The notes under the pieces: model-generated
What the model was told of the DNA's origin: nothing
The model's database searches: none
Seen by the model: only the letters and a program-made list of their open reading frames with translations
Shown: piece by piece, positions 5,396 to 55,934 of the stretch
Numbering within the stretch: the stretch's first letter is position 1
How the letters are laid out: each line of letters starts with the position of its first letter
Program-made: the position numbers and the translations under genes
Assembly: GCF_029633865.1 (NCBI RefSeq)
Contig: NC_079212.1
Coordinates: 103,067,584-103,131,583, forward strand
Reading direction: 5' to 3'
Length of the DNA: 64,000 bases
Origin: Lampris incognitus
Lineage: Eukaryota; Chordata; Actinopteri; Lampriformes; Lampridae

Positions 5396-5960
5396 GTTAG
5401 AGTGGTGTCGGTCCAGGCGGATCTAACAGAGACCAACTCAACACAAAGGAACGGACCCTTGGAGAAAAAAAACAGCAAAAACAAAAAAAAACAAAAAACA
5501 AGATCAACAACAAAAACTCTTACTACAAGGGCGTGATTGTGGACAAAAAAAATCTCTTCACTTTAAAAGAAGGACAACGGACAGAAGCGAGGGAGGAGGA
5601 GAAGAAACAGGAGTCAGCATATTCTTTTGGACCTGTTCATCTGTGTTGGTGGAAGTCATCGTGATGCCGAGAGAAGGTTAAGAGGCAGTTTTTTAAGCAG
5701 CACAGGTGCTGCCGCTTGTGTTGTAATTTCACAAAAAAGAGGTCACATTCATCCTTAAAGGACCCCCTGAAGTTCAGCAAAGTGAGCCAAGACAACCACG
5801 TGTGCAGATACAACAGCTCACTTGCACACAATTTGCGCTTCCTGTCTACACTCCCTTGTTCTACTTTCAACTTTGAATTGGGGTCAAAGCGTGAATGGGA
5901 CGCTCTTAACCCTCTTTGCGGACTTTAAGAATACACTTGGAGTTGCATAAGAGGAGTGCC
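5396..5960 (+). promoter_or_regulatory. angpt1: Probable 5' UTR / proximal promoter of angpt1
   Basis: This stretch runs from the end of the pyrimidine tract to the predicted start codon. It holds an A-rich segment (5465-5550) and a purine patch at 5585-5615. There is no TATA box at an obvious distance that I would trust, and no long open frame. Upstream ATGs are present (for example 5663 and 5895), as is common in long angiopoietin leaders. The in-frame reading extends upstream only to a TTG at 5916, so the ATG at 5961 is the first in-frame ATG. The transcription start cannot be fixed by eye. Confidence 0.45.
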
Positions 5961-6347
5961 ATGAAAAGCCTACTGCTGGGCTGGGGGCTGCTGACCCTCC
6001 TGCAGCTTGGCACATTGTTGGCAGTCCCTGCTGCAGCAGGTGTCACCAACGGAGAGCGAGGAGGACTCGGGAGAGGCCAACGCAAAGGAGGTGGAGGAGG
6101 AGGTGGCAATGCAGAGAGGAAAAGGAGGTTCCACCGCATCCAGCATGGCCAGTGCAGCTACACCTTCATCCTCCCGGAGATGGACGGGTGCCAGGGCGGA
6201 GGACCGCAGCCGGAGCAGTATGGCGGCTCTCACGCAGGGTCGAGCGTGGTGCAGAGGGATGCTCCACCCATAGACAGCGAGTGGTCGACACAGAAGCTGC
6301 AGCACCTGGAGACGGCGATGGAAAACAATACACAGTGGCTGAGGAAG
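5961..6347 (+). CDS. angpt1: Angiopoietin exon 1 (angpt1-like), partial gene
   Basis: This exon encodes the first 129 residues of a secreted angiopoietin, the ligand family of the endothelial receptor Tie2. It begins with a hydrophobic signal peptide (residues 2 to about 22). A Gly/Arg-rich linker follows (about 31-56), with seven consecutive glycines at 43-49 and a basic RKRR at 53-56. The family block RIQHGQCSYTFILPE (59-73) contains C65, with a second cysteine at C77. VQRDAP (97-102) and QKLQHLE (111-117) are further family blocks, and N122-N-T is a glycosylation sequon. The exon ends in phase 0 at AAG|GTAAGA (donor at 6348), where angiopoietin exon 1 normally ends before the coiled coil. 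RIQHGQC, FILPE and QKLQHLE favour angpt1 over angpt2. Angpt4 is the main alternative. The Gly-rich insert makes the exon longer than human exon 1 (about 100 residues). The start is the first in-frame ATG, with G at -3. Coiled-coil and fibrinogen-like exons are not in the window. Confidence 0.85.
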
Positions 6348-6353
6348 GTAAGA

Positions 6354-7045
6354 GACAAATCATTTTAGTTATGTAGGCAAAAATTATGACTATCTATTGG
6401 AGATTTCACACTGTGTGATCTAAACCTGCATCTGTGAAACCAGATGAGTGTAAATTGAGGGTTTATTGTTTGTCTGATGTGTTGAATAATTAGACGCTAA
6501 GTGGTTTTCAGGCTTCTTATCAGGCCTATCAGTTACTAATATTCGGTTTTTTATTGTATATTTGAACACGTCAGTGAGTATAGTAAGTGCTTCGTCAGCA
6601 TTCGAGTGTCATACAATAGACTTGTGTGTCTCATTAGACAGCATCACACAAGCATCAAACCAGGGGGAAGTTATTCAAAGTGCCATGCCATGTATTTCCT
6701 TGGGTGATGGAGGGAAGTAGTTTCATGGTCAGTTAAACCCTCAGAAATTATTAGCAGACATGGAGACAGACAAGAGGAGAAAAGTATTATATAAAACATG
6801 AATACATATGCTGTCACAAGAACCTTCAGGTTGTGAGGTGGTTAAGTATGCTACCTCTGAAGCCTCATGCATGATCCTACTGGGGCGAACCAAGTCCTGT
6901 TGTGTTGTTCCCGCTGTCTTCTCCTCACCTTTCTGATTTTCTCAGTGAAAAATCACAGAGTAGAGAGCGTGAGCTGTTTAAAATGCTACAGGGACCCAAG
7001 GTACCTAACATAACAGTCATGCAGAAATTTTTTGCGATGAGTGAC

Positions 7046-9631: not shown

Positions 9632-11975
9632 CTTTATTTATATAGCACTTTTCTTAAACAATCTCATAAAGTGTTTTACAAAGAAATAAAACAATACAAG
9701 ACAAAGAATAAGACCAAATAAGTAAGAATACTTATGACCTCTAATGACTAGTAATTATCCTGATTTCCTACATTAAATTCACTTATTGTAAGTCGCTTTG
9801 GATAAAAGCGTCGGCTAAATGACTGTAATGTAATTTACTGTAATAAGTAAAAATAAAAACAGTATTGATATTGATTTTATTTCAAACATGTTAAGATAAC
9901 AAAATAAAATATATAGGCAGGAATACAAGAACAAATGGAAATAATAGTGAACATATTTTGCAAACTCTGTAAAAACACAAGTAATAACTGGACCATGTTC
10001 GAAAAGGGTGTAGGATGAAGTAAAGAACTTTTCTATGAATATATGAATAAATAAAAAAACAACTATCAAACATTTGAAAAAACTTTCACAAAAAAAAAGT
10101 TTTAAGAAGAGATCTAAAAGAAACTAGAGACTTGGTTTGCCTTAGTTCAATAGGAAGCGAGTTCCATAGTGTGGGGGGCAAGCTCGATCACCCTTTGTGA
10201 CAAACTGAAACCTGGGAATAACCAGCAGGGCTCCATCTGTGGATTTTAATGGTCGAGAGGATGTATACCAGGTCAATAAATCACAAATGTATGTCGGGGT
10301 AAGACTGTTTAAGGCCTTAAACATGAGCAATAACATTTCAAAATCAATACGAAATATAACAGGCAGCCAGGGTAGGGAGGCAAGCAAAGGAGTGATATGG
10401 TCATGCCTCTTTGTCCTGGTAATGAGCCGAGCAGCGGTGTTTTGTACCAACCACAGATGGTGAAGGGAGCCCTTGCTGATACCTGAGTAAAGTGCATTGC
10501 AATAGTCAGGCAAGAATAGATAAAATGCATGTACAGCTTTTTGCAAATTGGCAATTGATAAAAATGACCTAATTTAGGAGATTACCTTTAGCTGGAGAAA
10601 GCATGACTGAACAACATGTTTGATTTGATTATCAAAACTGAGGTTAGTATCAAATATTACCCCAAGATTCCTAGCAGCCTGCTTAAGACTACCTGACAGA
10701 CCACCAAGATTAGTACCAAAAGAGCTGATGGAATTTGGGGGACCGAACCGAATGACCTCAGACTTACCGTCATTAAATTTAAGAAAATTTTTGGACATCC
10801 ATGATTTAATGTCAGAGAGGCAAGTTGTGAGATTTGCTAGGGTGCTAGGATCTGTGGATTTTAGTGGCATGTATAACTGAGTGTTGTCAGCATATAAATG
10901 GTAGAGAACATTGTGATTTTGAATGACCTGGCCAAGGGGTAGCATGTATATAGAAAACAGAAGGAGGCCAAGAACTGAGCCTTGAGGGATACCACAACTC
11001 AACTGGGCCATCGAGGAAGTAGAGTTACCCAGAATAACACAAAAAGTTCTGCTGGTGAGGTAAGAGTGTAATAAACTAAGAGCTGAGCCCTTAATGCCAA
11101 CCCAAGTCTAAGCGATGTAAGAGGATGCTGTGATCGACTGTGTCAAAGGCAGCAGTTGAGTCTAAAAGAAATAAAATTGAGCAGTCACCTCTGTCTGGAG
11201 TCAGTAGTGCGTCATTAGTAACCTTAACTAGAGCTGTCTTGGTACTATGAAGTGCTCTAAAACCGGACTGGAAACTGTTAAAACACTTAGTGTTCATAAA
11301 AGGAATCAATTGAGATGAAATTACTCTCTCCAGAACTTTAGATAAAAAAGACAATTTGGAGATTAGTCTGTAGGTACTAAAGGATAGGGAATCTATATTG
11401 GGTTTCTTCAGCAATGGGTGAACAATGGCATGCAACTGTCTCAAAAAAAATGCACGGCAACTCTCAAAAAGAGCCAGAGGCCAGAAAATTATTAAGAATT
11501 TGCAGAATAATGGGGCTAACAGTTGAAAATACCTCCTTGATCAGCTTAGTGGGAATGATGTCTAAGATGCAAGAGGAGGAGTTCATATTGGAGACTATAC
11601 TCTCTAACACTGAAACTGTAATTGGTTGGAACTGGGTAAAAGAGGCAGAATTAACACGGGAAATGGAATGAATGCAAGGGCCAGGCTGGATTTGGGACCT
11701 GATATTCTCAACTTTATTTACAAAATGAGTGAGAAATTGTTCGGACAACTCAACATCAGATTCAAAAAAAGAAGTGGAGGGACCATTATTAACAGAATCA
11801 ATTACCCTAAAGAGAACTTTAGGATTGCGGTTATTTCTTGATATCAGTTCAGAGAAGTATGCTGATCTCACATCCTTAACTGCCTTTTGGTAAATTAACA
11901 TTAACAAACCATTCGTAAACACTTTGTAAGGGTAGTCATATTTTAACATGGTACCAAATGACTAGTGAGGCAGTC
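9632..11975 (-). mobile_element. Degenerate L2/Maui-type LINE
   Basis: Minus-strand reading fragments in order are: a linker upstream of the RT (11464-11949); RT fingers with LSFLSKVLERV, FQSGFRALHST and [11 protein letters not shown] (11091-11444); RT palm/thumb with GIPQGSVLGLLLFSIYMLPLG and a catalytic box altered from YADD to YADN (10574-11011); and the L2-type C-terminal block with LWLVQNTAARLI and GDRACPPHYGTR (10142-10546). The 3' UTR probably extends to TTTATTTATATAGCACTTTT at 9632-9651. The endonuclease domain is missing, so the copy is 5'-truncated. Frameshifts and stops separate the fragments, so it cannot encode a working protein. A separate element is nested at 9730-9841. Confidence 0.85.
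9730..9841 (+). mobile_element. Nested L2-family 3' tail insertion
   Basis: The segment contains GTAAGTCGCTTTGGATAAAA and GCGTCGGCTAAATGACTGTA, the common fish L2/SINE 3' tail. A near-perfect 13-bp duplication flanks it (AATAAGTAAGAAT at 9717-9729, AATAAGTAAAAAT at 9842-9854), so only the tail was inserted. The insertion is in the 3' region of the surrounding minus-strand LINE. Confidence 0.75.
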
Positions 11976-14794: not shown

Positions 14795-15226
14795 TTCTTT
14801 TTTTGGGGGGGGGTTCCCCCGGTTCCCCCTTTTTCTCCCCAATTGAGTCCGGCCAATTACCCCACTCTTCTGAGCCGTTCTGGTCACTGCTCCACCCCCC
14901 TCTGCCGATCTGGGGAGGGCTGCAGACTACCACATGCCTCCTCCGATACATGTGGAGTCGCCAGTCACTTCTTTTCACCTGACAGTGGGGAGTTTCCCCA
15001 GGGGGACATAGCACATGGGAAGATCACGCTACCCCCCCCCCCCCCCAAACAAGCATCCTGACCGACCAGAGGAAGTGCTAGTGCAGTGACCAGGACAAAT
15101 CCGCAGACACGGACAATTGTGTCTGTAGGGATGCCCGACCAAGCTGGAGGTAACACGGGGATTTGAACCGGCGATCCCTGTGTTGGTAGGCAACGGAATA
15201 GACTGCTACACTGCCCGGATGCCCCC
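14795..15226 (-). mobile_element. tRNA-derived SINE, family A copy 2
   Basis: On the minus strand the head starts at GGGCATCCGGGCAGTGTAGC (15226 downward). It includes a recognisable B box (GGTTCAAATCCCCGTG), the shared central domain and the terminal GGCCGGACTCAATTGGGGAG, followed by a G/A-rich tail. A C-homopolymer (15031-15047) replaces part of the middle. Confidence 0.85.
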
Positions 15227-25082: not shown

Positions 25083-27160
25083 TGAATTTAGCTGTAGGGT
25101 GTTTTGAAAAGTAATGTTTTTAACCTGCTTTTAAATGTGTCCAGTGTGGGGGCCTCTCTCAGGTCCTCAGGCAGGGCGTTCCATCTACTTGGGGTGTAAA
25201 TAGAAAATGCAGCTTCCCCTGCTCTAGACCTAGCACGAGGGATGGTTAAAAGACCACTGCCATTGGATCTGAGAGTTCTCGCTGGTTTATAGGGAATTAA
25301 CATATCTTAGCGTGGTGCAAGGCCATTTAGCGCTTTGTATACAATTAAAATAATTTTAAAATCAATTCTAGTTTTTACGGGGAGCCAATGCAGAGATCTA
25401 AGAACAGGTGTAATGTGCTCATACTTTTTAGTTCTGGTGAGAACACTTGCTGCCGCATTTTGAATTAATTGTAGTTGGTACACAACGGATTTTGGGAGGC
25501 TGGTGAATAGTCCATTGCAGTAGTCTAGTCTACTTGTTATAGAAGCATGGATTAATTTCCAAAGTCTGATATTGATAGAAAGCCCCTTAGTTTTGAAATG
25601 TTTTTAAGATGGTAGAAGGCTGATCTTGTGAGATGATTGATGTGGCTCTTAAAATTTAGATCACTGTCCATGATTCCACCAAGATTTTTAGCTTCACCTT
25701 TGCACTCCAGAGACAGAGAGCTGAGATGAGCTGCAATTCTCTGTCTCTGAGTCTTTGCACCGAAAATAAGTATTTCTGTCTTGTCTTTGTTCAGTTGTAA
25801 AAAGTTATCTGACATCCATAAAGTAATATCGTCAATACACTGAATTAGGGAACGTATGGGAGATAGGTCATCAGAAGATAGGGATATGTAGAGTTGTGAG
25901 TCATCTGCATAATTATGGTAATTTATTTTGTGTTTCTGTATAACCTGTGCAAATGGGAGCATATAGAGATTGAATAGTAGTGGTCCAAGAATCGAACCTT
26001 GGGGTAGCCCACACGTTATACCCACTTTGTCCGAGGAAAAGTCTCCAATAGACACAAAAAACTGCCTGTCCTGAAGGTATGTTCTAAACCAGTTGAGAAC
26101 CGGGCCAGAGAGGCCGACCCATTTTTCTAATCTCTCTAGAAAATATCATGATCAACAGTGTCGAAAGCAGCACTGAGATCCAGGAGCACAAGAACAGACA
26201 ATTTATTAGAATCTGTGTTCATATGCAGATCGTTCACAACTTTGATAAGTGCTGTTTCTGTGCTATGGTGAGATCGAAAACCCGATTGACAAATGCCTAG
26301 AAGGTTGATAGATATTAGATAGTTATTAACTTGAGAATAAACTGTTTTTTCAAGGATTTTGCTGAGGAATGTTAAGTTGGAGATGGGCCTGTAGTTGGCA
26401 ATAACTGTCGCATCAAGATTACTCTTCTTCAGAAGTGGTTTAACGACAGCTGTCTTAAGTGCTGCAGGAAATATACCTGCCTGAAGAGAGTAGTTAATAA
26501 TTTCTAAAACATCATGTGCTAAGCAATTAAAAACATTTTTAAAAAATTTGGTAGGGAGAGGATCCAAGCAGCAGTTGGACGACCTGAGCCGCCTAACAAT
26601 ATTGTCTAGACTTTTAAGGTCTAGAGTGTCAAAGTGAGACATGGTACCAGTAATATTTCTGGAGAACTGGAGGGTAGGTTCATTACTGGATCTTGAGGCA
26701 CTAATGTTCTGTCTAATGGCAATAATTTTGTTATTGAAGAATGTAGCGAATTGCTCACATATTTGAGTGGACAGCATCTCTGATGGGTTTGGAGATGGTG
26801 GATTAATAAGTCGGTCAATAGTGGAGAAAAGCACTTCACTGTTGTTAATATTTTCATTAATGATTTTAGAGAAAAAAGACTGTCTGGCCTGTTTAATTTC
26901 TTTGCAGTACTCATTCAGTCTGTCCTTGTAAATTTCATGGTGAACCTGAAGTTTAGTCTTTCTCCACTGTCGTTCTGCTTGGCGACAGTCTCTCTTAAGC
27001 TGCCTAATAACCACTCCATTTCTCCAGGGGGCTTTTTGTTTTTCTATGTTTTTAGTTTTAACAGGTGCAATGTTGTCAAAGATATTCCGTATTTTTGAGT
27101 TGAAGTCGTTCACAAGATCCTCAGTTTGTGATGACATGAATGGCGACAACTCATTTACGG

Positions 27161-27235
27161 ATATATACCAAGTCCAGTTGCACTTGATTCAACTCCTTTG
27201 GATAACCATGACCTGGATGAATGAGAACATTCACA
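27161..27235 (+). mobile_element. 75-bp retroelement-tail insertion in LINE ORF
   Basis: A perfect 16-bp direct repeat GACAACTCATTTACGG (27145-27160 and 27236-27251) flanks a 75-bp segment nearly identical to 21622-21710. The insertion lies between endonuclease and RT of the L2 LINE on the opposite strand and breaks its reading frame. It therefore came after the LINE. Confidence 0.88.
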
Positions 27236-28569
27236 GACAACTCATTTACGGTTTTCTGAAAGGTTTCAATTGTGTAATTATCAATGAAGTGTTTTGTTAG
27301 CATGTGAGTGCTCTTCTGTTGTACAGGAAGAGCAGACACATCAAAAATATACAACAGTGATCAGAGATAGCAACATCCATGACAGGGGGTACAGTAATAT
27401 TAAGTCCTTCTGATATGACTAAGTCTAGAGTATGCCCCTACTTGTGTGTGGGTCCAGAAACATGCTGAGTGAGAGAAAATGCCTCCAGTAAGCCAATTAG
27501 GTTTCTAGCATCGGGGTCTGTTTGATTGTCAACATGAACATTAAAATCACCCAGGATGATGAAATAATCATAGTTAGTGGAAACCGTAGACAGTAGGTCC
27601 GAAAATTCGTCAAGAAAGCCATGTTTAGATTTTGGTGGCCGATAGACAGTAATTATTAAAATCGTAGCAGTACAATGTATGGTAAGAGCAAGGTGTTCAA
27701 AAGACGTGAATTTCCCGAGGGGGGTTTCCTTGCAGCTATAGGAATCAGAGAAGACAGCAGCTATTCCACCGCCTCTCTTATCAGATCTGGTGGTATGGAT
27801 GAATTTGAAGCCCAGAGGTGTAGTCTCAATAAGCGCGATTGCACCATTTCTATCCAGCCAGGTCTCGATCAGTAGGGTGAAGTCCAGGTTATACGTACTT
27901 ATAAGATCATTAACTAAAAATGACTTATTAGTTAGCGACCTGACATTTAATAAAGCCATTTTTATTGTCTGAGGTGCATGGCTTTGTTGGGGACTGATAA
28001 CGGAAGTCCGAACTGGCAACAAATTGTTTAGCTCCCTGTATGTTACAGGGAGATTACGGGGTCTGTGTCTATTGTTTATTATTACAGGAAATAGTATAGC
28101 AGAGTGACAGTCATTGGTATGATGGATCGAACCCACCAAAGGACCTGAATAAGTGGTTTACAACGGAACCAAAATTGAAACCACTCTGCTCCTGTGGACG
28201 TCAATTAGTGACGGAACTGTCTGCACCTGTGTGTGGGCACCAAACGTTATTGTCTCTGTGATTTAGCTGGTTAGTGGCTCTGTCTAGTCAAGGAGTAGAC
28301 AGCATAGGTCAAGTGTATGGTGTGGGGTGAGGTCAAAATAAAGTAGAGCAGCATGCACTTTATTTCACATGTTTTGCACTTTCTTTCACATGTTATCCCT
28401 CCATTATGATCTAGCATACACAAACACATACATAGGACAGGACTCTATGATATTATGTCTCCACTGTAATTGGGCCTACAGACAGACAGAAAGACTGAGA
28501 ATTTTGAATACAGTTTTCCAACATGCCCTTTCTTATCATAATGACATTCAAATAATCTGTATGTTAGGC

Positions 28570-48377: not shown

Positions 48378-48827
48378 TTTTTAATTTTTTTATTTTTCCT
48401 CCCTTTTCACCCCAATTGTAGCCGGCCAATTACCCCACTCTTCCGAGCCATCCCAATCGCTGCTCCACCCCCTCTGCTGATCCTGGGGAGGGCTGCAGAC
48501 TACCACATGCCTCCTCCAATACATGTGGAGTCACCAGCCGCTTCTTTTCACCTGACAGTGAGGAGTTTCGCCAGGTGGATATAGCGCATGGGAGGATCAT
48601 GCTATTCCCCCCAGTTCCCCCTCCCCCCTGAACAGGTACCTTGACCAACCAGAGAAGGCGCTAGTGTAGCAACCAGGACACAAACCCACATCTGGCTTCC
48701 CACCCACAGGCACGGCCAATTGTGTCTGTAGGGATGCCTGAACAAGTCGGAGGTAACACAGGCATTTGAACCAGAGATCCCTGTGTTGGTAGACAATTGA
48801 ATAGACTGTGATGCTACCTAGGTGCCC
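48378..48827 (-). mobile_element. tRNA-derived SINE, family A copy 6
   Basis: Minus-strand copy with all family blocks (GGGCACCTAGGTAGCATCAC; GACACAATTGGCCGTGCCTG; CTCACTGTCAGGTGAAAAGA; GGCTGCTGACTCCACATGTA-type block; GGTAATTGGCCGGCTACAAT). A perfect 17-bp target duplication TGGATTTGTCAATCTTT flanks it (48361-48377 and 48828-48844), making it the best-preserved duplication of the family. Confidence 0.93.
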
Positions 48828-48887
48828 TGGATTTGTCAATCTTTGACAAAAGATTTTAAGTGTTTCTGATGTCTCAGCTTGCAAGAT

Positions 48888-49133
48888 CTTTGGGTTCGCG
48901 AAGCGAACCCTAGTTATATGAACAACGACAAAATGGCTGAGAGGGTTGTTGCATTGTGACATCATCCACAATAGCTCGCTGGAAAAAAGAAAAACGATGG
49001 AGGTGCATTCCCCGTGCCAATCCTGGACAATATGACCCCCTGTGGTCATATGTCCTCCCACCGACCCCGTATTGGCACGCCCACCGGAAGCGCTATTCCT
49101 CTTTGTAAGTCGAACCATCTCCAACTAAATGAG
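48888..49133. repeat. DIRS left inverted terminal repeat
   Basis: The outer 41 bp (48889-48929) contain the near-palindrome GGGTTCGCGAAGCGAACCC and are unique to this end. From 48930 (AAAATGGCTGAGAGGG) to 49133 it is the inverse of the right terminus, with a 10-bp extra block near 49108-49117. Confidence 0.9.
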
Positions 49134-49175
49134 CACCACACCTGTGGCCCGGGTAGGAGGAGAACGGCTCTATTC

Positions 49176-49262
49176 TCAGCCATTTTGTCGTTGTTCATAT
49201 AACTAGGGTTCGCTTCACGAACCCAAAGTTACATTTCACGTACTCCAAAATGGCTGAGAGGG
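49176..49262. repeat. DIRS internal complementary region
   Basis: The left half (GTCGTTGTTCATATAACTAG ... CGAACCCAAA, to ~49226) is the complement of the left outer end. The right half (GTTACATTTCACGTACT ... AAAATGGCTGAGAGGG) corresponds to the complement of the right outer end (54763-54797). The two halves meet at 49226-49230. This is the arrangement described for DIRS-1, where this region templates the missing termini of the reverse-transcribed circle. Confidence 0.88.
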
Positions 49263-49366
49263 TTATTGCATTGAACAACGACAGGATTCGTGCCTCCGTT
49301 CCCTAGCCGTCCAATGAACCCTTCAAACCCCTGGTGGGAAGGGGTACGCGTTCTGATGAGAGCATC

Positions 49367-50480
49367 CTAAGAGGCCTGCTCCAGAACAGCGTCGGCAACC
49401 GACCGCACCTTAACGTGCCGGTAATAATGCCGTAAGAAAGTGGTCTCACCACTCCAAACCGCCGCCTGGCGGATGACCTCCCAGTCGATACCTGACAACA
49501 CAGCTATCGACGTAGCAGTCCCTCGGGTAGAATGCGCCTTCAGCTTAGGAGCTGTTTTACCCGCTTTGGTATACGCCTCCGTAATACCATCCACCAGCCA
49601 GTGTGCTAGCCTCTGGGTGGAAAGGGCATAACCTGGTTTGCTCACTCTGTAGGTCAACAGCAGCCTGTCAGACCTACGAATATCTGCTGTGCGCCGCATG
49701 TAAATGCGTAAAGCCCGTACAGGACAAGAGAGGTGCAAGCGTTTCTCATCCCTAGTCACCGGTGACGGATGAAACGCGTGTATCACCACCGGGGCCCTAC
49801 GCGTCAGGACAGACACAGTTTTGGGCATGAAGCTGGGGTCTGTAAAGAGCGTGACCATCAGATCACCAGAAAACACCATCCCCTTGATGGTGAGTGCAGT
49901 GAGCTCACAACCCCTCGCTGCGGTGGTAAGTGCCAAGAGCACAGCCAGCTTAGCCGAGACATAACGCATGTCTGCCGTAGACATGGGTTCAAAGGGATCT
50001 TTCTCTAGTGCGCGCAGAACAAGGGAAGCATCCCAAGTTTCAGCTCTCGTAAGCTCCTTAGCTGAGAGCTTCTTAGCACCCAACAGGTACTGCGTCATGA
50101 GCGGGTGCGTGAAAACCGTGCTACCCTCGATCTTCCCCCCGGAAGAACGTGAGAGCCGATACACAGACTTTGACCGAGGAGAAAGACCATAGTCTATCAC
50201 TCCTACAGACCTCCACAAAAGTCAGTATAGGGCCAATCCCTACTGACAAAGGGTCCATGTCGCGTTCAGCGCAAAATTGGTCAAATCGATTCCAGTACCC
50301 CTGGTACCTGGAATACGTGGAGTCTTTACGCGCCGCTAAGATGACACGAATCACTTGCGCACTAAGTCCCATAGCTAAGAGCCTGGCTTTGTAAGCATCC
50401 ACGCCGCTAATCGGGAGCCTCCTATCCAGGGGCCCTCCCGTAGCAGCCCTCCTGCTTGCGTGAGCGCGTCCGCCCACTCC
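49367..50480 (-). pseudogene. DIRS tyrosine recombinase (YR), frameshifted
   Basis: The YR would integrate the circular DNA copy. The 283-residue open frame (49367-50218) holds the catalytic domain: R102 (TAARGCEL), H229-x-x-R232 (AHSTRG), W255 and the tyrosine nucleophile at Y265/Y266 (FLRHYYRHV), so the R-H-R-Y set is present. The N-terminal SAM-like core-binding part (STYSRYQGYWNRFDQFCAER) lies upstream in another frame (~50260-50400). At least two frame changes lie between 50130 and 50220, where the two frames alternate. The YR overlaps the end of the RT/RNase H frame, as is usual in DIRS. Confidence 0.88.
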
Positions 50481-52280
50481 GGGCCGTCGAACCGCTCGCC
50501 TACTATCCAGGGCACTATTCGCGGAAACCACGGGGTGCTCGGTTCGTACGGGGCCACGAGAACTAACCGACCCCCTGTGCGCTCGAACTTGACCACCAGG
50601 TCTAGGAGGCACCTGCGCGGGGGGAATGTGTAAAGCGTCTCCTCGGGCCATGGATCTAGTCCAAGCGCGTTGACCCCCAACGGCGCTAGGTCGGACGGGA
50701 GCATCGAGTACCAACGAGGGCACTTGTAATTGAGTTTCGATGCGAACAGATCCACTTGAGCTACCCCGAACCTCTCCCAGATCATAGCCACTATGGCTGG
50801 GTTGAGGCTCCAATTGTCCGCATGCGGGCCGCCTCTCGAGAGGATGTCCGCTGCTTCGTTGTCCTTCCCAGGAACATGAAGCGCCCTGATTGATAGCACG
50901 TTGCTGTTGACCCAAATCCAAATTTGCATGGCCAACTCTCTGCAACGCTTGGACTTCATACCGCCTTGGCGGTGGATGTAGGCCTTGGCCGTCATGCTGT
51001 CTGTCATTATCAGTATGTGACGGCCTACGAGATCCTGAGCGAAATGCTGGATAGCCAGCCAAATCGTCTCTGTCTCGCGCGCGTTGATGTGGACCTTCTC
51101 CCCAGACGGCCACACTCCTCGCGCTGTTTTGTAGCCAAGGATGGCCCCCCAACCCGAGAGGGTTGCATCCGTATAAATCGTTACCTCGGGTCCCCTGGGG
51201 CCCATAGGGACCCCAGACATGTCCACGCAGGCTCTGTTCCAGTAGTCTAGGTCCTGCGCTACCACGCGCGGGACCAGGATAAGATGGTTGTTGTACCGGT
51301 GTCCGTTGCCGTATTTCAAGAAGTGAACTGCGAACCACAATTGCAGTCTCCTCATGAACAACAGACCTAAAGGAACAACTTGGTGAGCCGATGCCAGAAG
51401 GCCCAGCAGCCTCCTGATCATCCGATAAGTGACATATGTCGCCGGGACAAAATGTGCTAACGTGGTCCTGGTGGAATGCCATCTCTCTTGCGTAAGGGTT
51501 GCGCGCATGGATACCGTATCCAAACTCAGACCCAGATACGTTGCCTGGCACGAAGGCCATGGCACGCTCTTCTTTATGTTGATAGTGAAACCCATGTACT
51601 CCATGAATTCCATCAACTCCTGAGTATGGAGTATTGCTTGTTCCGGCGACCGGGCCAACACCAACAGGTCGTCTAGGAACCATGCCAAGCGCATACCTTT
51701 GCGCATCAACACTCCGAGCGCTGCTTTCACACACCTTGTGAATGTCAGAGGAGAGAGGCGATATCCGAACGGGAGGCGTGTACTGGTAACACTGACCCCG
51801 GTAACAGAACCGAAGATACTTTCTGTGTCTTTCCGCAATCGGACAATGATAGAAAGCATCTTTTAGGTCGACCGAAGTTAGCCAAACGGACTGTGTCACC
51901 ATTGACAGCAGAACCGGTGTGCGTAGCTTTTTGAAACTGACCTTCTCTACATACTTGTTGAAGGGTTTCAAATCTAGGATTGGGCGCATGCCCCCATCCT
52001 TCTTCGGGACCAGAAAGTAACGGCTGTAAAACCCGTCTTCTCTTTCTAGGGGAGGAACCACCGTGATTGCCCCTTTCGAGAGTAACTGTGAGTTCCTTGT
52101 CTAGGATTTGTGCTTCGGCCACCGACCCCGGTTCCGTATGCACTATTCCCAAGTACGGGGGTACAATACCGTTCTCGAAAAGGATTTGGTGTCCGTGGGC
52201 TATCTGATCCAAAACAGAAGCCAACGGGACCAGTTCCTTCCACCTGTGTAACATGCGTGACAGAGGTCTCATTGCCTCCT
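50375..52280 (-). pseudogene. DIRS reverse transcriptase-RNase H, frameshifted
   Basis: The N-terminal RT part is split over two frames. RPLSRMLHRWKELVPLA begins near 52272. After a frame change near 52068-52075, SRYFLVPKKDGGMRPILDLK and SVDLKDAFYHCPI follow. After another near 51775-51782, the main 494-residue frame (51859-50375) carries RLPFGYRLSPLTFTR, the catalytic box FLDDLLVLA (residues 61-69), and RNase H residues D231 (TDATLSGWGA), E262/E264 and D287 (MTDSMTAKAY). Its C-terminal region (VDLFASKLN, LDPWP, YTFPP) matches the block downstream of RNase H in DIRS proteins, where some members carry a methyltransferase-like domain. The two frameshifts make this copy inactive as it stands. 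Confidence 0.9.
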
Positions 52281-52812
52281 GTACCTTGCTGTTCAGGTAG
52301 CGCGCGTAAGTTGCGCGTCAAGGGTCTGGGGAAGCCCCGCCCGCCATGCCCTACATCCATGGGGGGCTTCGTCCTTGTAAAGGAGACCCAGATGGGGGAA
52401 TTGGCGTTTTGAACCTTTCCAAATTACCATTTGACCCATCAGAGAGACTAAACATTGTCGCATCATAGTCCCCTCCCAGGGGCTCATTTGCGCTCATGCC
52501 ATTATTATCCAATATTTCCAGCAGGGATGTTATTACATTGTTATCATCATCTTTACCTAAAGATTCAGACAGACAATCAGACTTGCGTTTCAAACCTTTT
52601 AAAACGCAATCACCATCATCACCAACATAAAAACTTTTATTCACATTCACAACCTTTGGAATAGAACAAGTAGACTGTGCATCAGAAACCAAAATAAAAG
52701 GCGCACTGTTTAGCCCTGCGCACGCTGTGTCCCCTGAACAAGCGTCTATATCGCCGGAGACGGCTCTGGAATCAGTCTGTTGGTGTGGGTCGTAACATCC
52801 TGCCGAAACACG
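52281..52812 (-). other. DIRS gag-RT linker
   Basis: An acidic, low-similarity region. A 113-residue frame (52351-52692) is in the same frame as gag but follows the gag stop at 52813. It may be the N-terminus of the RT polyprotein or old gag sequence. Confidence 0.5.
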
Positions 52813-54462
52813 TCACTTGGCAGCTCCCTTCTTGGAAGTGTCTGTGCTGTCCGGCTTGGCCGCCTTGGCCGCTGGATCTGTGGAAGACTGGGAGTTTGGA
52901 CGTGAGCCCTGTCCACGCCCGCGCCCCACTTTACCACCTCTTTTTGGATAAGTCTCTCTCCATTTCTGCTTGCGCGCAGGCTTGTCCCTCTGCCCTTTGC
53001 CCACCGCGGGCTTAGGGGTAGGCGGGTTCTTCATCATCGGGAGAAGCTCCTTGTGCAAGGTTTCGCGCTCGGCCTGGGCGGCCTTGTATTTGCTGATAAT
53101 GTCCGGGGTCGTTCCAAACAGGCCCTGGTTCCCTGCGCAGGAGTGGGCCATCCACTCCTTGCAGAATCCCTCTTTTACCCCGGCTGTCTCTAGCCAGAGA
53201 CGTCTGCGCGAAAGGGTGGAGGCAGCTGCGCTAGAACCGCACTCTAGAGCGATGGAATACAGCAGCGATCCCAGGGAGTCAGCTATGCATTCCATTTCCA
53301 AGATGTACTCACAACCTGCTTCGCTGGCCACTACGTCACCGAACTCGGCCCCGTCGATACCTGCTGTAGCGATGGCGGCTTTGCTTTGCCCGACGTTTGA
53401 TAGGCTGCAGAGCTTGCGCATGTACGCCGTTATCATCCCAGCCGCTGAGACGAGTCCAGCTGCGCGTGTACTGGCGTGCCATGCATCACACGTGTAACGA
53501 TCCACCTGTTGGCCCCACTGCGAAGGGTGTTTGGGAGTATCGCGAGACCCCACCTTGGTGTTAGGGTTGAACGATAAAACGTCCCTCTCTGGTTGCGGAA
53601 TTTTCCAGTCTTTGTAGTTGAGGTTCCTAACCTCGACTGCTAAGACGTCAACCCCCTTCTGACTGAACTTTGAGGACGATTTAAGTAGTGGATCCGCCTC
53701 CGCCCACTTAAACGCTCGTTCGATGTGAGGATAAGGTGGTAGAGTGGAGTCCCTGACCCTCTCTGCCATTCGTGGAAAATCGGCTACCACCGGATCTTGA
53801 GGATTGCCCGGCTCGGTAACGATGTCAGCAGACTAGACCGCTCGCGCGAACAGATCGCGGAAACTGGCGAGGAATGTTTCGGACCCATGTTGCATGGCGT
53901 CGCCATCTTTGTTTGGTTGAGACGAACTTGGCTGGTTGTCTTCCACGCCCTGATCGTCTACTTCCTCAGGCAGTGAATCCTCGGGTTCCGCACCCGCCGA
54001 ATAACATGCCACGGATTCACCAGGGAGAGATAGGATCTCATTGATCCAGTCCTCTCTAACTATCCCGGATGGTGGGATAGCCTCTGGCTCTGGAGGGATG
54101 CTAATGCCAGCCGCCGTCCCGTGACTGTAGCTAGGAAGCATCGGAGGGACGTTGCTAGCCTCCGCCCCATGGCTATAGCTAGGTAGCACCATGCTAGCCG
54201 CCTCGTTAGCAGGTGCGAAGGGATCTGCAAGTCCCCATCTTTGACGGTACAGGGCAGCCCACCTTTGGCGCCCCGATGCTCTGATGGTTTTACAGAAATT
54301 GCAGTTGATCTCATTACGGTCTACATCCCTCAAGTAGCCCGTGTAGTGAACATGCGGGATATGGGAGACACAGTCCGGATGGGGGTCCCATTGGAGCGTC
54401 GCCGGTTTAACACACCCGCACCAAGCGTAGAATCCGGCCACATCGACCGGATTAACGAACAA
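52813..54462 (-). pseudogene. DIRS gag-like ORF1, one in-frame stop
   Basis: ORF1 would make the structural RNA-binding protein. The N-terminal segment (209 residues from the ATG at 54462) starts with a cysteine/histidine cluster (CGC ... DPHPDC) typical of DIRS ORF1. It then has two copies of LPSYSHG and acidic linkers. The frame meets a TAG at 53833-53835 and continues in the same frame for 325+ residues. That part ends in a basic Gly/Arg tail (KRGGKVGRGRGQGSRP) near residues 285-300, suited to RNA binding. Apart from the TAG the frame is open for about 1.65 kb, so decay is recent or the stop is read through. Confidence 0.85.
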
Positions 54463-54797
54463 CTTGGCGATAAAAGGTAAGCTAACTATAAGTTAGTATC
54501 TAATATACCAGTATATCACTAGATTACTTGCGTATTTGCAGTTTTACTCTTGGTCCCAGCGAGAGAGAAACAGCCATCGACCGATCTCATTTAGTTGGAG
54601 ATGGAAAGAGGAATAGCGCTTCCGGTGGGCGTGCCAATACGGGGTCGGTGGGAGGACATATGACCACAGGGGGTCATATTGTCCGGGATTGGCACGGGGA
54701 ATGCACCTCCATCGTTTTTCTTTTTCCAGCGAGCTATTGTGGATGATGTCACAATGCAATAACCCTCTCAGCCATTTTGAAGTACGTGAAATGTAAC
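54463..54797. repeat. DIRS right inverted terminal repeat and leader
   Basis: The segment 54586-54779 is the inverse of 48930-49133 (GCGCTTCCGGTGGGCGTGCC; ACCACAGGGGGTCATATTGT; CGTTTTTCTTTTTCCAGCGA). The outermost 18 bp (54780-54797) is unique to this end. The segment 54463-54585 is the leader before gag. Confidence 0.88.
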
Positions 54798-54900
54798 CAG
54801 ACGAGCTGACTTTGGCTCTATTGAGCTGCTGCAAAAGCATATATTTTTCAATGTCAGTGTCAAGCATCCATTAAGAATATCATGTAAATAATATCTAATG

Positions 54901-55934
54901 GCTAAAAGCAATCCAGTCCTTGTATAACCAAAGTGAGAGCTGTGTCCACATTCTCGGCACAAAGTCAAACACGTTTTCAGTGGGTGCCGGACTCCGCCAA
55001 GGTTGTCCCTTGTCTCCGATTCTGTTTGTGATGTTTATGGACAGGATCTCAAGGCGCAGCCAAGGTGAGGAGTGTATCCATTTTGGGAACCTCAGAATTG
55101 CATCTCTGTTCTTCGTCGATGATGTAGTTTTGTTGGCTTCATCAGAAAATGACCTCCAGTGCGCATTGGGATGGTTTGCAGCTGAGTGTGGAATGGCTGG
55201 AATGAGAGTCAGCATCTCCAAGTCTGAGGCCATGGTTCTCTACTGGAAAATGGTGGATTGCCCCCTCCGGGTTGGGGATGAGACTTTTGCCTCAAGTGAA
55301 GGAATTCGAGTATCTTGGGGTCTCGTTCATGAGTGAGGGTAGGATGGAGTGGGAGATTGACAGGCGGATTGGTGCAGCATCAGCAGTAATGTGGCCCGTT
55401 GTGGTGAAGAGGGCGCTGAGTGGGAAGGCAGAGCTCTCAATTTACCAGTCAATCTTCATTCCAACCCTCACCTATGGTCATGAGCTTTGGGTAGTGACTG
55501 AAAGGGTGAGTTCGTGGATACAAGTGGCTGAAATGAATTTCCTCCTTATGGTGTCTGGGCTCAGCCTTAGAGATAGGGTGAGGAGCTCAGCCATCTAGAG
55601 GGAGCTCGGAGTAGACCCGCTGCTCCTTCGTGTCGAAAGGAACCTGTTGAGGTGGTTCGGGCATCTGAAAAGGATGCTTCCTGGGCGCCTTCCTTTGGAG
55701 GTTTTCTAGGCATGTCCAACTGGGAGGAGACCTTGGGGTAGACCCAGAACTCACTGGAGGGACTGCATGTCCAATCTGGCCTGGGAAGGCCTTGGGATCC
55801 CCCAGGAGGAGCTGGGGGGCGTTGCTGGGGGGAGGGACATCTGGAGTGCCCTACTTAGTTTGCTGCCACCGTGACCTGACCCTGGAGAAGCGGTCGATGA
55901 TGAGATGAGATGAGGTGAGATGAGATGAGATGAG
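54901..55934 (+). mobile_element. Rex3/RTE-type LINE, 5'-truncated
   Basis: The RT palm region contains GLRQGCPLSPILFVMFMDRI and the catalytic box FVDDVVLLAS (54920-55336). A frame change near 55270-55320 leads into EYLGVSFMSEGRMEWEIDRR and SIFIPTLTYGHELWVVTERV (55272-55598), and a TAG at ~55596 precedes further matching sequence (LLRWFGHLKRM). The 3' end is a GAGAT/GATGA short tandem array (55893-55934), as in Rex3-type elements that end in GATG-like repeats. A perfect 13-bp duplication ATAATATCTAATG flanks it (54888-54900 and 55935-55947). The upstream endonuclease is absent. Confidence 0.9.

Follow-up and report, generated by a model that had tools for sequence, protein, structure and literature searches.

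How does a DIRS retrotransposon recognise the site that it enters, and at which base step is it joined to the chromosome? In published models, an internal complementary region (ICR) templates the joining of the element's ends, and a tyrosine recombinase (YR) recombines the resulting circle with a site identical to it over 3 bp (PMC3266345, PMC5633606); models thus exist for this entry into the genome, but its experimental proof is incomplete (PMC5941688, PMC5633606). We addressed the question in a stretch of 64,000 nucleotides from Lampris incognitus (GCF_029633865.1, NC_079212.1, positions 103,067,584 to 103,131,583; hereafter the window), which contains a DIRS1-like element with many copies elsewhere in the same genome. 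With about 90 readable junctions per end, this recent fish family amounts to a natural experiment on DIRS integration. Our best explanation, to which as a whole we assign a probability of roughly 0.87, is that a recently amplified DIRS1-like element integrates as a circle through its YR, without target duplication, at sites that mimic its own circle junction and with a fixed point of exchange.

The element in the window is a single, structurally complete DIRS1-like retrotransposon of 5910 bp. Its parts outside the coding regions are as follows.

48888-54797, minus strand: the whole unit, a DIRS1-like retrotransposon, delimited by ends common to copies elsewhere in the genome and by inverted and internal repeats.
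54586-54797, minus strand: 5' (left) terminus, consisting of a divergent outer part, GTTACATTTCACGTACT, and a conserved inverted repeat.
48888-49133, minus strand: 3' (right) terminus with right extension, including the hairpin at 48892-48910.
49174-49273, minus strand: ICR, with inverted repeats I3 and I4 and a GTT core.
54795-54797, minus strand: 5' core GTT, of which base 1 probably comes from the target and bases 2 and 3 from the element, judging by the junctions of other copies.
48886-48888, minus strand: 3' core GAT, of which base 1 probably comes from the element and base 2 from the target, again judging by other copies.

The exchange within the core was read from two pattern searches of the genome. 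The 5'-end pattern, which leaves out C at -10, gave 156 matches, of which 100 were listed, 8 dropped as ICRs and 92 kept; the 3'-end pattern, which leaves out G at +10 and flipped hairpins, gave 115 matches, with 100 listed, 6 dropped as ICRs and 94 kept. Of the eight dropped 5' entries, six terminate in CAAAG or GCGAAG at a distance of about 5.5 kb from a 5' end; the other two, one of them with the core ACT, are 317 and 373 bases away from a listed 3' end, a spacing like that of an ICR. The kept 5' ends had the cores GTT (81), ATT (4), CTT (3), TTT (2) and GTA (2), and the kept 3' ends GTT (63), GAT (21), GGT (7), GCT (2) and TAT (1). Hence the second core base differed from T at none of 92 5' ends versus 31 of 94 3' ends (p 5e-11), and the first differed from G at 9 of 92 5' ends versus 1 of 94 3' ends (p 0.009). 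A uniform analysis that applied one rule to all of 99 copies (86 readable 5' ends, 83 readable 3' ends, 72 copies with both) gave 0/86 versus 20/83 for the second base and 10/86 versus 1/83 for the first; six of the last 20 copies had been chosen for a non-GTT 5' core, which inflates the variation at base 1, and the sole 3' exception (L097, core TTC; L numbers denote copies) is an unreliable five-error match. Seventeen copies of this set combined a second core base other than T at the 3' end with a 5' end that could be read, and in all 17 the second base at the 5' end was T. The same was true of both L185/186 and L187/188, bringing the one-sided outcome to 19 of 19 informative copies. The exchange is thus fixed between core bases 1 and 2, such that the 5' end receives the element's T and the 3' end the target's base.

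Empty paralogues of the insertion sites point the same way. Six insertions with GTT at both ends (L012, L014, L020, L027, L034/033 and L042/041) have empty paralogues with a single GTT and no duplication, the repeat units shown for L014 having one base fewer a few positions to the left of the site. L070/090 has the ends GTT and GGT and sits within a tandem repeat; in the adjacent units of that repeat, the site has GGT in two places and GGC in a third. A SINE-like repeat hosts L185/186 and L187/188, both with GTT at the 5' end and GAT at the 3' end; the left flank of L187/188 matches it over only about 19 bases. Uninterrupted copies of this repeat have GAT at the site in six instances (window near 15150, 31223, 35239 and 41878; L024; L027) and CAT in one (window near 48753), and those at L012 and L034 also have GAT, although the insertion of each interrupts the repeat immediately to the left. 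Because empty paralogues carry the base found at the 3' end, that end keeps the target base and the 5' end brings the T of the element. Less informative were L190, whose right flank matches the SINE-like repeat and whose 5' end was unreadable, and L177/157 (GAT end), whose right flank is a common repeat with matches passing the core by a few bases only. The lack of target duplications, which a first-pass annotation of the window had taken from general knowledge of DIRS elements, was thus borne out by single cores at paralogous empty sites of other copies; for the window copy itself, an empty site was sought among paralogues and none was found.

Could the variable 3' base have arisen without the target, by non-templated joining of the circle or by later mutation? 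The ICR core is GTT in both the window copy and L009, which end in GAT, so their GAT base was not copied from the present ICR, as such an origin would have it. The same two ICRs, the only ones examined in GAT copies, ruled out that GAT is an inherited variant. Yet the 3'-end base also occurs in the empty paralogues of three insertions, and mutation of about 0.6% per copy (half of 1.2%) is too low to account for 31 of 94 ends; we therefore regard an origin outside the target as very improbable.

The SINE-like repeat, which contains what we take to be a tRNA B-box-like stretch, has two sites, each struck at least twice by the DIRS family. It was seen in the window near 1250-1500, 15150, 31223, 35239, 41878 and 48753, and at L012, L024, L027, L034 and L185-L190.

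How a fixed outcome might be produced is a separate matter. As a rule, YRs cleave the two strands at positions 6-8 bp from each other. A two-strand exchange with an overlap of 6-8 bp, in which mismatch repair or replication always favours one strand, would agree with this habit and with the Cre/Xer-like fold predicted for the YR here. Random resolution of such an overlap, however, would mix the outcomes, yet the 5' T was found in 17/17 and 2/2 copies, and the element's CCAAA stands to the left of the core in none of the 92 kept 5' ends (the dropped entries with CCAAA are on the opposite strand, some 5.5 kb away from a 5' end, which places them at the ICR). We give this course slightly less than an even chance. 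Alternatively, and more tentatively, the YR might exchange only one strand, at the right-hand border of an overlap that is heterologous (NNNNNG|TT), with replication then resolving the junction, as with integron cassettes and CTX-type phage; this is a hypothesis that we consider rather unlikely. If true, it would account for the fixed outcome even though targets match mainly at AAC, G, T and A, and it possibly involves a single-strand circle, with the terminal hairpin helping to form the site. Either one-strand exchange with replication or a strong repair bias would yield the one-sided outcome observed, while random repair predicts a mixture.

The bases around the core are also far from random. 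A stood at -8 in 28 of the first 36 readable 5' ends, and again in 14/16 and 12/15 ends of two further copy sets. (These earlier junction sets left out L043, L098, L102 and L104, and the 3' end given for L144 there is no true end.) Of the 92 listed 5' ends, 75 carried A at -8, 52 carried A at -7 and 35 carried C at -6, while the full AAC at these positions occurred in 21 versus 1.6 expected; among the 94 listed 3' ends, 46 had A at +1, as did 34/83 in the uniform set, and 9 had G at +2. Tested against GTT contexts elsewhere in the window, these preferences had p values of 5e-26 (-8), 1.5e-8 (-7), 6e-5 (-6), 4.5e-11 (+1) and 0.007 (+2). The two further sets and the pattern search bore out the target preference, so that chance in the first 36 ends is rejected as its source. 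The circle junction of the element itself, GAACCCAAAG|TTACATTTC, reads A, A, C from -8 through -6 and has A at +1, so the targets resemble it. The target consensus, A-A-C-N5-G|T-T-A, thus mimics the circle junction. This refines the models: a target need not share all 3 bp with the junction, since GAT, GGT, ATT and others are also used, whereas AAC at -8 to -6 and A at +1 matter.

Copies might instead have spread by microhomology or by homologous recombination into older copies, with no YR choosing the site. Such homing has precedents in the DIRS elements of zebrafish and Dictyostelium (PMC5941688, PMC5633606). Here, however, the flanks are diverse and non-DIRS; a common motif recurs in them 8-6 bases outside the core, and their empty paralogues contain one core only, all of which makes spread by microhomology or homing very improbable.

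In the explanation that we prefer, the RNA would be copied to complementary DNA (cDNA), the ICR would template the joining of both ends to give a circle with the junction ...GAACCCAAAG|TTACATTTC..., and the YR would bind this junction together with a look-alike chromosomal site, exchanging strands at G|T. The junction data fit the DIRS models as to the circle junction and the lack of duplications, and the YR likely joins the circle to the look-alike site at the G|T step.

Several observations weigh against this explanation. The patterns demand exact termini, and only the first 100 matches to each were listed. A at -8 is absent from 17 of the 92 5' ends, and the window copy itself has C there; the effect at 5' base 1 is modest, and 1 of 94 3' ends begins with T. 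The empty sites are paralogous repeats and not the same locus in another individual. Some of them read other than GTT (1 of 9 paralogous places for L027 and 1 of 2 for L042/041), and L116/136 ends in GTT although its only paralogue, an old repeat at 77% identity, reads GCT. Finally, a shift of frame within the YR is common to 17 of 20 copies, so the lineage may need YR in trans or frameshifting.

By the features examined the element is DIRS1-like, and its plan nearly equals those of TnDIRS1a and GaDIRS2, compared here by published description (PMC3266345). TnDIRS1a of Tetraodon nigroviridis, of 5931 bp versus 5910 bp here, has GTT/GAT ends, an AAC circle junction and a long overlap of open reading frames (ORFs); its ICR spans 36-57, versus about 46-55 in our element, and the accessible part of its published description does not discuss a target base or a flanking rule (PMC3266345). 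The stickleback elements GaDIRS2 (5782 bp) and GaDIRS1 (5322 bp) share, again by description, an AAC junction, a long ORF overlap and a right extension only, with GTT/GTT ends (PMC3266345). DIRS-1 of Dictyostelium likewise has inverted terminal repeats (ITRs), an ICR, gag, overlapping YR and reverse transcriptase (RT)-RNase H-methyltransferase frames and a circular DNA intermediate, circles being reported from an agnA deletion strain, but it is reported to target its own copies with no apparent sequence preference (PMC5633606), in contrast to the AAC-N5-GTTA found here; the table entry for DIRS1-2, unlike our element, has TTA ends. Table 3 of PMC3266345 includes elements that begin with NTT and end with NAT or NGT, namely TnDIRS1a, AcDIRS1, AcDIRS2 and XtDIRS2, a combination that the exchange rule found here would explain. 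In literature searches on DIRS repeats, integration and targets, with subscription journals mostly outside their scope, none of the titles and abstract openings listed, nor the text consulted, described a sequence rule for the targets of DIRS elements. The rule may therefore be new, while the element itself is a fresh example of the known DIRS1-like type. The exchange point, pinned to a single base step, and the target rule, with its match to the circle junction, together supply substrates and predictions for biochemistry and for the mapping of insertions in other species.

The borders of the element are exact to the base, because 17 of 20 fetched same-genome copies align to its base 1 and 18 of 20 to base 5910. 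Eleven of the 20 match all 5910 bp in one unbroken alignment, and a twelfth does so without the last three bases. An assembly from separate insertions is practically negligible as an alternative: nothing in its favour was found, and it is contradicted by the identical order and ends that recur among the 20 copies. The arms of the inverted termini (48929-49115 and 54594-54779) are 95% complementary, with the right extension present. The ICR is 98% complementary to both outer ends set end to end and equals the sequence expected at the circle junction, the overlap falling at the 3-bp junction with the core GTT/AAC; its match to the 3' end of the window copy stops one base into the core because that end reads GAT. 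Ngaro elements have split direct repeats in place of ITRs with an ICR; such repeats were sought among those of the window and none were present, so membership of Ngaro or PAT was rejected. PAT elements show the same arrangement (PMC3266345).

The hairpin at 48892-48910 is perfect, with a stem of 8 bp and a loop of 3 bases. Of 17 copies whose ICR could be read, 3 have its loop flipped there, and so do 4 of 51 further readable 3' ends (5 of 51 if the doubtful L144 is counted); the places concerned are 49174-49273 and 48892-48910 in the window and copies L019, L025, L027, L043, L094, L098 and L104. Recurrent loop flips of a hairpin with an 8-bp stem hint at hairpin extrusion.

The first-pass annotation had proposed a recent insertion and a search for copies more than 95% identical. 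A 1-kb query gave 232 candidates. Scores were obtained for 40 of them, and apart from the window copy all 39 had 98-99% identity. Among 21 copies, mean pairwise divergence was 1.2%, with 602 singleton versus 57 shared variants, and the window copy differed from the other copies by 1.2-1.7%. This low divergence and the predominance of singletons mark a star-like, recent burst. We conclude that this DIRS1-like fish element was amplified recently, probably from few source copies.

The coding regions, all on the minus strand, are these.

52813-54492, minus strand: gag-like ORF with one in-frame stop at the 53832/53833 boundary; no Pfam match.
50375-52495, minus strand: pol, comprising RT, RNase H and a methyltransferase-like tail; three frameshifting indels; the upstream limit is approximate, taken from alignment with other copies.
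50121-52100, minus strand: long ORF in a frame other than that of pol, which it overlaps; the end of this ORF codes for the N-terminal (core-binding) half of the YR.
49367-50221, minus strand: catalytic half of the YR, in a frame different from that of the N-terminal half.

The gag assignment rests on ORF position and on the open frame of 552-559 amino acids (aa) kept in 6 of 20 other copies. The pol frame is open over 495 aa in the window copy and over 707 aa in 9 of 20 other copies. Its RT matched Pfam RVT_1 (E 5e-14) and contains FLDD, and RNase H gave only weak Pfam matches below cut-off (E 5e-4 and 0.018). A sequence search of the PDB with the pol ORF returned CaMV RT at 5e-9, and the predicted pol model (pLDDT 91) is similar to the reverse transcriptases of CaMV, MLV and Ty3, which are RT-RNase H structures. 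The methyltransferase-like region after RNase H matched a Dam profile below cut-off (E 0.034) and is conserved in relatives, some of which have PF05869. The YR ORF of 284 aa, whose catalytic residues we take by motif to be R, HSTR, W and Y, matched Phage_integrase at E 3e-4, under the curated cut-off; its predicted model (pLDDT 83) is similar to Cre, XerH and lambda Int, and a PDB sequence search with the YR gave a chance match only. The protein collection contains relatives at 60-79% identity; the listed relatives with organism names are fish, at lower identity. Long ORF overlaps occur in half of 28 described DIRS1-like elements (PMC3266345).

Taken together, the inverted termini, ICR, gag-like ORF, RT-RNase H and YR within 5910 bp, along with the RVT_1 match, FLDD and the Cre/XerH/lambda-Int fold, uphold the first-pass annotation's view of a structurally complete DIRS unit; the one-piece matches of 11 of 20 copies agree with its claim of a single insertion, and the uninterrupted frames that it advised seeking exist for gag and pol in other copies. 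To that view we add the minus strand, the methyltransferase-like region after pol, a feature characteristic of DIRS1, the N-terminal half of the YR in another frame and the 3' end GAT.

The window copy is dead and mildly decayed, its lesions being the gag stop, the three pol indels and the YR halves that are out of frame. The last follows from the length of a short homopolymer, whose longer form puts the halves out of frame. This longer form was present in 17 of 20 readable copies, including the window copy, and the shorter form in 3 of 20, in a sample chosen by likeness to the window copy; one further copy was unreadable. The shorter form has 72 exact matches genome-wide, 11 of them within copies listed in the 1-kb search. 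Relatives continue in frame across the YR boundary, with the caution that predicted proteins are biased toward open frames. The longer-form lineage may have relied on YR supplied in trans by other copies or on frameshifting.

As for the surroundings, the placement of the element in an intron was sustained in part. An exon near 5951-6368 (plus strand), which we take by motif to be an angiopoietin-1-like first exon, lies upstream, with the DIRS copy about 42 kb downstream in antisense orientation; a motif scan of the window found no later exon of this gene. The element is thus likely, but only likely, in intron 1 of an angiopoietin-1-like gene. Adjoining the element, at 54899-55598 (plus strand), is a decayed LINE-type reverse transcriptase fragment. 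Elsewhere in the window, the ORF list includes long LINE-type ORFs at 10142-11961 and 25552-28157 (both minus strand), with GIPQGS/GLPQGS and YADN/YADD motifs.

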